Origin: Rhodospirillaceae bacterium SYSU D60007
Lineage (GTDB): Bacteria > Pseudomonadota > Alphaproteobacteria > Reyranellales > Reyranellaceae
Reading direction: 5' to 3'
Length of the DNA: 64,000 bases
Assembly: GCA_003574685.1 (NCBI GenBank)
Contig: QOCQ01000001.1
Span: 310,001 to 374,000, forward strand
Below are positions 28,751 to 30,158 of this stretch, piece after piece; the first letter of the stretch is position 1; each line of letters starts with the position of its first letter. The notes under the pieces are model-generated. The model was not told the origin of the DNA and did no database searches. It was given only the letters and a program-made list of their open reading frames with translations. The position numbers were made by a program, and so were the translations under genes.

Positions 28751-29500
28751 TCAGCCGTCCCAGACGTTCTGCGGCATGGGCAGGCCGGTGAAGTCGGCGT
28801 CGCCCAGCGGCCGGCTATAGGGGATGCCCTCCAGCTCCAGCAGCATCATCCATTGCCGCACATGCTGGCCGGCATGCCACGTGGTGCGCTCCAGTAGCTC
28901 GTGCAGGCTCTGCGGACCGTAGTAGGTGTCGAGGCTGCGCCTGGCAGCCGTATTGCCGCCGACATACCACTGGCGGAAGCGCTGGCGCACGGCCTCGCCC
29001 CAGGTGAGCAGCGCGGCAGTATCGGCATCGGCCGGTGGCTCGTCGCGGAAGGCGGCCTCCTCAAGGGCAATGCCATCGCAGGCATCGAGGAAGGCGCCGA
29101 CGACGCGGAACAGGTGGAAGGCGAGGCTGCGGTAGCTGCGCGGCCGCCCCGGGACATGCGTGCCCAGACGGTCGGCCGGCATCAGGGGCAGCAACTCCAG
29201 CGCCGATGTCATGAACTTGTCGAGGCGATCGTAAAGCTCCGGAACCGACAGCGAGGGCCCCGATTTTTCTTTGAGGCCCAGGAAGGCGATCACGGGTGCC
29301 AGACTCTGCGCGAACACAAAGTCGTTGCCGCGCGACAGCACCGGCAACGAGCGCGCCCCAAGGCGTTCCAGCTCGGCCGTGCCGTGCGGATCCTCCAGAA
29401 CGTTCACCGAGACGAATTCGATCTCACGGACCGATAGAAACTCCTTGAGCCTCAGACAGCTCGTTCAACCGGGCTGCCAGAACACCTTCAGCGGCACCAT
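28751..29500 (-). CDS. Glutaredoxin-DinB-like fusion with in-frame TGA at the CxxC motif (candidate selenoprotein)
   Basis: Translation from ATG 29500, behind ACGGAGGAGCGC, gives MVPLKVFWQPG, then TGA (29465-29467), then TSCLRLKEFLSVREIEFVSV in the same frame. With TGA read as selenocysteine the protein is 249 residues: a glutaredoxin-like domain (1-80) with a UxxC motif and a cis-Pro loop RSLPVLSRG, and a DinB-like helical bundle (90-215) with histidines in LAFHLF and TTWHAGQHV. Without read-through only a GTG 29407 start remains, cutting off the redox motif. Cysteine homologues would read WQPGCTSCLR. The alternatives are a nonsense mutation or a sequencing error. The thioredoxin-fold neighbour upstream may work on related thiol chemistry. 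Confidence 0.7.
29423..29449 (-). promoter_or_regulatory. Candidate bacterial SECIS hairpin downstream of the TGA
   Basis: On the mRNA, CUCA-A-GGA (from 29449) pairs with UCC-G-UGAG (to 29423), a 4+3 bp stem with one A-G mismatch. The 11-base apical loop begins with GU, as SelB-binding loops do, and the GU lies about 24 bases after the UGA, similar to fdhF. A shorter competing hairpin (GAGC/GCUC) overlaps. Such hairpins also occur by chance. Confidence 0.35.
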
Positions 29501-29558
29501 GCGCTCCTCCGTCACTCGCCGGAAGGTAACCCGGATTTGCCGGGCTTGCCATGCCCCG

Positions 29559-30158
29559 TCACATCCATGGGCGTTGGGCCCATTCGACGGCGAGTTCCAG
29601 TCGGTCGTTGCCCCAGAAGAGCTCGTTGCCGATGAGGAAGCTGGGCGCACCGAAAATGCCGCGCGCCATCGCTTCATCGACATCGGCCATCAGCCCTCGC
29701 TTGTTTTGCTCCGTCAGTGCGGCAGCCAGCAGCGCCTCGGCATCGAAACCATGAGCGGCAACCACCTCGCCGACGACGGTGGCATCGGAAATCTCCCGAT
29801 CGTCGACGAAATTGGCGCGATAGAGCGCGCGCGACAGCGCCGGACGGAGATCGGCCGTTGCGGCGCGGGCCAGTCGCGCGGCCAGCAGCCCGTTGCGCGG
29901 ATAGCTGCCAGGCCAGCGCAGCGGCAGGCCGTACTTCGCACATAGGCGCTCGACTTCGCGCCGGCGATACGCGCGCTGCGCCGGCGTCGCATTCTGAAAC
30001 GGCGAAGGATTGTCGGGCCGCTGGCGCAGGATCGGGCCGATGACGAAGGGCCGCCAAAGCACCTCGATGCCGGCAGCCTGCGTGCACGCGTCGATCCGTT
30101 CCGCCGCCATCCAGGCGTAAGGGCTGGCAAAGTCGTACCAGAACTCCAGCGAGGGCAT
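29559..30158 (-). CDS. 2-hydroxychromene-2-carboxylate isomerase / DsbA-family protein
   Basis: The 199-residue product starts MPSLEFWYDFASPYAWMAAE, the typical opening of the kappa-GST/HCCA-isomerase branch of the DsbA fold, with serine in the FASPY position where oxidases have CxxC. FGAPSFLIGNELFWGNDRLEL near residue 170-190 is the cis-proline loop and C-terminal signature. In naphthalene degradation such enzymes isomerise 2-hydroxychromene-2-carboxylate with glutathione; most genomic homologues have unknown substrates. It lies upstream of the candidate selenoprotein on the same strand. Confidence 0.9.
   Translation of the reverse strand: MPSLEFWYDFASPYAWMAAERIDACTQAAGIEVLWRPFVIGPILRQRPDNPSPFQNATPAQRAYRRREVERLCAKYGLPLRWPGSYPRNGLLAARLARAATADLRPALSRALYRANFVDDREISDATVVGEVVAAHGFDAEALLAAALTEQNKRGLMADVDEAMARGIFGAPSFLIGNELFWGNDRLELAVEWAQRPWM

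Follow-up and report, generated by a model that had tools for sequence, protein, structure and literature searches.

A glutaredoxin-DinB fusion gene of Alphaproteobacteria with an in-frame UGA predicted to encode an active-site selenocysteine

Results

An apparently interrupted gene on the minus strand of the window (by which we mean the whole 64,000-nucleotide stretch of DNA analyzed) is almost certainly intact, its in-frame UGA being read as an active-site selenocysteine (Sec), as judged by sequence comparison. The gene (positions 28751..29500) would encode a 249-residue glutaredoxin-DinB fusion selenoprotein (Grx-DinB) whose twelfth residue is Sec. We regard Sec as the residue encoded at this UGA with hardly any reservation, and the joint reading of Sec decoding and a Grx/DinB domain make-up is held with very high, though slightly lower, confidence. 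A standard gene finder would cut this gene off at the UGA.

Gene structure and domain organization

The minus-strand frame starts at an ATG (29500-29498), runs through 11 codons (MVPLKVFWQPG) to a TGA (29467-29465), and continues for 237 codons to the stop TGA at 28753-28751. A putative ribosome binding site, GGAGGAG, lies directly 5′ of the ATG (29504..29510, minus strand). The first-pass annotation had described this start, GGAGGAG site, 11 codons, TGA and 237 codons, and re-reading of the sequence returned the same coordinates. The predicted Sec-UGA codon (29465..29467, minus strand) occupies the first position of a UxxC motif (WQPG-U-TSC). Glutaredoxin sequence had also been said to continue across the TGA, and we agree: Pfam Glutaredoxin (PF00462) matched the read-through protein at residues 5-61, a span that includes the TGA, with E = 3e-8 and 34.1 bits against a cut-off of 22.9. 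Sequence and fold searches also linked this glutaredoxin domain (29318..29488, minus strand; Sec12 and Cys15) to 7c10 and 3zij, and the U/C-x-x-C motif was present in all homologues aligned.

The remainder of the protein contains a DinB / S-transferase-like four-helix domain (28832..29245, minus strand), which was assigned by profile, alignment and fold search. DinB_2 (PF12867) matched the window protein at E = 5e-4 and 21 bits, just under its cut-off of 24.8, and it matched 29 of 30 relatives at E ≤ 0.01, the best at 1e-8. An AlphaFold2 model made with 30 homologues had a mean pLDDT of 93.2 and a pTM of 0.88. In Foldseek searches of the PDB, the N-terminal half matched the Grx-like protein 3zij and the dithiol Clostridium oremlandii Grx1 (cGrx1, 7c10), and the C-terminal half matched DR0053 (6iz2), YfiT (1rxq), the mycothiol-dependent maleylpyruvate isomerase (MDMPI; 2nsf) and the M. 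tuberculosis mycothiol S-transferase (8f5v). The match of the predicted model to 6iz2, a four-helix DinB fold, had a TM (target) of 0.80, a probability of 1.00 and E = 8e-4; since only one match lay under E = 0.001, we read these matches as fold-level likenesses.

His129, His209 and His213 of the DinB domain were invariant in 30 of 30 homologues, and they correspond to the triad H67, H160 and H164 of BstA, which is thought to hold a metal (PMC5815605). All eight B. subtilis enzymes require metal in order to transfer bacillithiol (PMC5815605). It is most likely that the three invariant histidines of Grx-DinB coordinate a metal and that this metal activates a low-molecular-weight thiol.

Distribution of TGA and Cys among homologues

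A homologue search of 385 genomes of the class yielded 33 full-length homologues, among which 19 had exactly one in-frame TGA and 14 had none. In all 19, the TGA opens the U-x-x-C motif, and TGC or TGT was found at that codon in each of the 11 stop-free genes inspected (of 14). As 19 of 33 homologues carry one TGA and every TGA inspected is at the same codon, the in-frame TGA is not a chance event. Furthermore, of 518 confirmed stretches in a GTDB scan with one genome per species, the best 80 were evaluated, a set weighted toward close relatives. Seventy-nine of these 80 loci include the Sec position, and TGA was present there in all 79; the loci belong to Vineibacter, Reyranella, Enhydrobacter, Desertibaculum, Acidisphaera, many Acetobacteraceae and MAGs. 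Altogether, 98 relatives (95 distinct) have TGA at exactly the Sec codon, and the remaining 15 inspected (11 genomic and 4 plasmid) have Cys, the plasmid homologues being those of Roseomonas, Variovorax, Caballeronia and Rhizobium. Independent assemblies concur on the TGA. The first-pass annotation had placed the TGA where homologues carry the first Cys of the motif; indeed, the column alternates solely between TGA and Cys. Its concern that the TGA might be private to one strain can be set aside, because the codon is fixed in 98 relatives, with purifying selection on the gene. Between the window gene and its Vineibacter orthologue, dN was 0.17 and dS 0.54, and dN was about one third of dS in comparisons with the Vineibacter, TGS_PRO8, Enhydrobacter and Reyranella soli genes. 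The dN/dS figure was higher in the comparison with locus L062, for which an unaligned length difference may be the explanation.

The Sec and Cys forms grouped into a few blocks on a 52-protein tree, so that 2 changes were needed as compared with ~13 when labels were shuffled. Either an old gain of Sec followed by reversion to Cys or two gains would fit this distribution. When 399 genomes sampled across the phylum were searched at E ≤ 1e-15, two Reyranellaceae-type genomes and no others were returned, and thus the family seems to be largely restricted to the class. Note that one genome (G306) carries two Grx-DinB copies, G306:C24:4426-5175 and G306:C25:5253-6005, one with TGA and one stop-free.

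Hairpins downstream of the UGA

RNAalifold analysis of 19 Sec genes returned a single consensus hairpin, in which columns 33-39 after the UGA are paired with columns 45-51. In the window gene this predicted SECIS hairpin is UCGGUC-CGUGA-GAUCGA (29418..29434, minus strand), with the apical loop 36 nt past the UGA, and consensus folding, covariation and codon constraint all point to it. Standard pairs were found in 95.5% of cells among the 19 genes, with both-side changes at three pairs. Compensatory changes in the stem included U-A to C-G and U-A to G-C. In the set of 19, the covariation score was 0.338 versus 0.210 for shuffles, none of 500 reaching 0.338, and slid versions of the hairpin scored ≤0.09. 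When the set was extended to 61 sequences, the inner six pairs were 99.5% paired, and RNAalifold again returned the SECIS hairpin and no other. The loop reads CGUG followed by G, C or A (CGUGN) in 95 of 95 distinct Sec genes, all of which form the hairpin. The Arg codon in the loop was CGT in all 95, whereas in the rest of these genes CGT made up 144 of 1571 Arg codons. Among Cys genes, on the other hand, neither the hairpin nor the CGUGN loop occurred in any of 11, and none had more than five of the seven pairs.

The bSECIS consensus quoted in PMC13188914 has an apical loop of 3-9 nt, an upper stem of 4-16 bp, a G at loop position 1 or 2, commonly with G or U after it, and a UGA-loop distance of 16-37 nt. 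The Grx-DinB hairpin falls within these limits, with a 5-nt loop, a 6-bp stem and the CGUGN sequence, its distance of 36 nt being near the upper limit. An Rfam search of positions 29350-29560 gave no match, which places the hairpin outside existing Rfam models. When the first 48 nt were folded as a single sequence, another structure resulted (z = -1.3), and the comparative hairpin was adopted instead. A genome-wide search with the hairpin pattern, allowing ≤1 mismatch, found 24 sites, the gene's own included, versus 10 in the reversed control, and we give this comparison no weight.

Another hairpin, GAGGCUC-AAG-GAGUUUC (29437..29453, minus strand), lies between the UGA and the SECIS hairpin and is a possible spacer helix, for which pairing and a codon bias provide weaker evidence than that for the SECIS hairpin. 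Columns 15-21 pair with 25-31 in 86.9% of cells, and the structure is present in most lineages. Codon 5 has a strong AGA/AGG/AAA bias, AGA accounting for 57 of 71 Arg cases there versus 4 of 1571 elsewhere. We considered this hairpin as the SECIS and rejected it, because it is not universal and its AAG/AAA loop is unfitting. As a spacer helix, it may bring the SECIS nearer the ribosome.

Selenocysteine machinery and other UGA genes

The first-pass annotation had proposed a search of the genome for selA, selB, selC and selD; all four are present in the source assembly (G000; 99.8% complete, 58 contigs). Specifically, contig C7 carries a tRNA-Sec gene (75.6 bits; TCA anticodon by ARAGORN), with tRNA-Ser genes as the two next-ranked matches of the genome, and the same contig encodes SelB (450 bits), SelA (567 bits) and SelD (287 bits). 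The selD-containing ORF (L048:14804-17029) is 741 aa long with an N-terminal pyridine-nucleotide oxidoreductase-like part, i.e., a fused SelD. Across genomes, selA was above the cut-off in 18 of 19 TGA genomes versus 3 of 13 Cys-only genomes (Fisher p = 4e-5, relatedness ignored), and the sole TGA genome in which selA was not detected (G011) is 77% complete.

Three PrdB-like genes of the source genome (contigs C2, C12 and C18; L170, L171 and L172) also have an in-frame TGA, in contexts such as VPxUPVCHQTVS, followed by a hairpin with the loop CGUGA located 17 nt past each UGA. The idea that Grx-DinB is the genome's only selenoprotein was rejected on account of these genes. PrdB/GrdB-like TGA genes were observed elsewhere too, at L164:9349-10566, L166:7472-8698 and L167:8806-10005, where they lie near selA/selB, and there were up to seven matches per genome.

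The formate dehydrogenase (fdh) cluster beside the intact selA-selB on contig C7 (L048:13360-14730; gene names by resemblance) is broken: the C-terminal part of fdoH remains, fdoG is missing, and two crcB-like frames replace the fdoH N-terminus and fdoG. No alpha subunit of a Sec formate dehydrogenase (Sec-FDH) was found in the source genome, which appears to have lost Sec-FDH while retaining selABCD. A full-length FDH alpha gene with TGA was present in just 4 of the 19 TGA genomes. A 2006 survey (PMC1794560) had named FdhA as the sole selenoprotein of Alphaproteobacteria that decode Sec. Among the genomes searched that have a Sec form of Grx-DinB, most possess sel genes and no Sec-FDH, indicating that alphaproteobacterial Sec use is not tied to formate dehydrogenase.

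Genomic neighborhood

Codon-based gene calling at Grx-DinB loci revealed no neighbor gene conserved across lineages; since the neighborhood is not conserved, function is read here from the domains alone. Gene names at the window, Reyranella and L164 loci are by resemblance. A 2-hydroxychromene-2-carboxylate-isomerase-like gene ends 58 nt upstream of Grx-DinB in the window, and a gene for a TTT-type substrate-binding protein lies just upstream in many Reyranella loci. The plasmid Cys homologue of Roseomonas is surrounded by isochorismatase-family, AtzG-like and amidase genes, and that of Variovorax by genes for a TTT transporter component, dehydratases and a CoA transferase. At L164:2506-4302, the Sec Grx-DinB gene has an MsrA-like gene upstream and an OsmC-like gene downstream, and an OsmC-like gene is also near Sec Grx-DinB in 9 Acetobacteraceae loci.

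Discussion

In the mechanism we propose, the UGA at 29467-29465 would be decoded as Sec by tRNA-Sec and SelB, directed by the coding-region hairpin with its CGUGN loop 36 nt downstream. Sec12 would then serve as the nucleophile of the U-x-x-C glutaredoxin domain, with Cys15 as the resolving residue. In the DinB/YfiT domain, a metal held by the three His would activate a low-molecular-weight thiol, and this metal domain would carry out thiol transfer to, or thiol-dependent isomerization of, a small substrate, after which the Sec/Cys pair could reduce the resulting mixed disulfide or oxidized thiol. The parts themselves suggest a thiol enzyme, with a Sec/Cys exchange centre covalently tied to a thiol-handling domain that is predicted to depend on metal, and the overall role is most likely thiol exchange. 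We infer the metal binding, the choice of thiol, the substrate and the catalytic cycle alike.

Three other readings of the UGA were weighed. A pseudogene, in which a random nonsense mutation or sequencing error struck the glutaredoxin Cys codon of an ordinary Cys protein, would account for a single in-frame TGA in a family that has Cys homologues; however, 95 distinct genes, drawn from many independent genomes and assemblies, share this TGA, dN is low and the frame is kept throughout, the downstream hairpin is conserved, and the TGA co-occurs with selA, so that we give this reading practically no credence. Only marginally more credible is that a different tRNA suppresses the UGA, such as that for Trp, Cys or Arg, or that readthrough is programmed. 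Comparison alone does not identify the inserted residue, which leaves some room for this explanation, but the genome encodes a dedicated tRNA-Sec plus SelA, SelB and SelD, Cys is the only alternative observed at this position, the loop of the SECIS-like hairpin recurs in three more UGA genes of the same genome, and the TGA tracks selA across genomes. Similarly improbable is that the UGA is a true stop and that the locus makes two products, an 11-residue peptide and a DinB protein. With the TGA as a stop, the first listed downstream start is the GTG at 29407, giving an ORF of 218 aa that lacks the redox centre, and standard gene finders would report the gene in this form. Nevertheless, the stretch from the UGA to this GTG (TSCLR-KEFLS) is among the most conserved protein sequence of the family, and a start at 29407 drops the glutaredoxin active site kept by every Cys homologue. 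Sec insertion thus remains the preferred reading.

The specific role is a more tentative matter. We lean, without much assurance, toward a role in which small electrophiles or acids are handled with the help of a thiol and Sec drives the reduction of the oxidized thiol. A somewhat less favored proposal, compatible with Sec, is that Grx-DinB is mainly an isomerase or transferase of small-molecule catabolism, like MDMPI, and that the Grx part supplies or binds the thiol with no disulfide reduction. The MDMPI-like fold of the DinB domain, the catabolic genes adjoining the Roseomonas and Variovorax plasmid Cys homologues, the TTT-like component gene upstream in many Reyranella loci, and the isomerase-like gene upstream in the window speak for that proposal, whereas neighborhoods vary by lineage, and the MsrA- and OsmC-like neighbors at one locus point to oxidative repair.

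The first-pass annotation had called this a candidate new selenoprotein. This claim stands for the fused DinB domain and the lineage, but not for the glutaredoxin part, as selenoprotein glutaredoxins were already known (PMC13188914, PMC1088965). The 119 families of prokaryotic selenoproteins inventoried in 2026 (PMC13188914) include Grx (UxxC) and several Grx-like families and no DinB fusion. No paper on a selenoprotein Grx-DinB fusion was found in a literature search that excluded most subscription papers and all preprints, and no model of NCBIfam 20.0 (June 2026) reached its cut-off on the Grx-DinB protein. Grx-DinB adds a two-domain family to the bacterial selenoproteins, and its Cys versions in related genomes offer a direct test of what Sec adds. 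We see roughly equal chances for and against a broader proposal, namely that a widespread, undescribed Grx-DinB family helps sustain Sec decoding in Alphaproteobacteria without Sec-FDH, and that it represents a new architecture in which a Sec redox centre is covalently joined to a metal-dependent small-thiol transferase and a second conserved hairpin keeps a CGUG-loop SECIS at a distance of 36 nt from the UGA.

Among known systems, the Sec Grx of Clostridium/Alkaliphilus oremlandii shares the same Grx domain with Sec first in UxxC, and its dithiol form (7c10) was the best PDB sequence match to Grx-DinB (E = 1.5e-13). The C. oremlandii protein, however, is a single domain of 84 residues, whereas Grx-DinB has the extra fused DinB/S-transferase-like domain. 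The Sargasso Sea and GOS surveys listed Grx and Grx-like Sec families and named no DinB fusion, and short metagenomic reads counted as Grx/Grx-like in these ocean surveys could include members of the Grx-DinB family. The NCBIfam Uxx-star models NF041212, NF041211 and NF047338 describe Grx-like Sec proteins with weak profile similarity to Grx-DinB (E 1e-5 to 7e-4); Grx-DinB scored 20-25 bits against their curated cut-offs of 66-100, and the models cover ~70 residues with no DinB part. Sec-FDH uses the same selABC machinery, but it is a molybdo/tungsto-enzyme with no sequence kinship to Grx-DinB. On the DinB side, BstA-H, mycothiol S-transferase and MDMPI share with Grx-DinB the predicted DinB/YfiT fold and a His triad with HxxxH. 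Unlike Grx-DinB, these thiol transferases and isomerases, whose thiols are bacillithiol or mycothiol, have neither an N-terminal Grx nor Sec. Grx-DinB would connect Sec chemistry with the S-transferase-like (DinB) superfamily.
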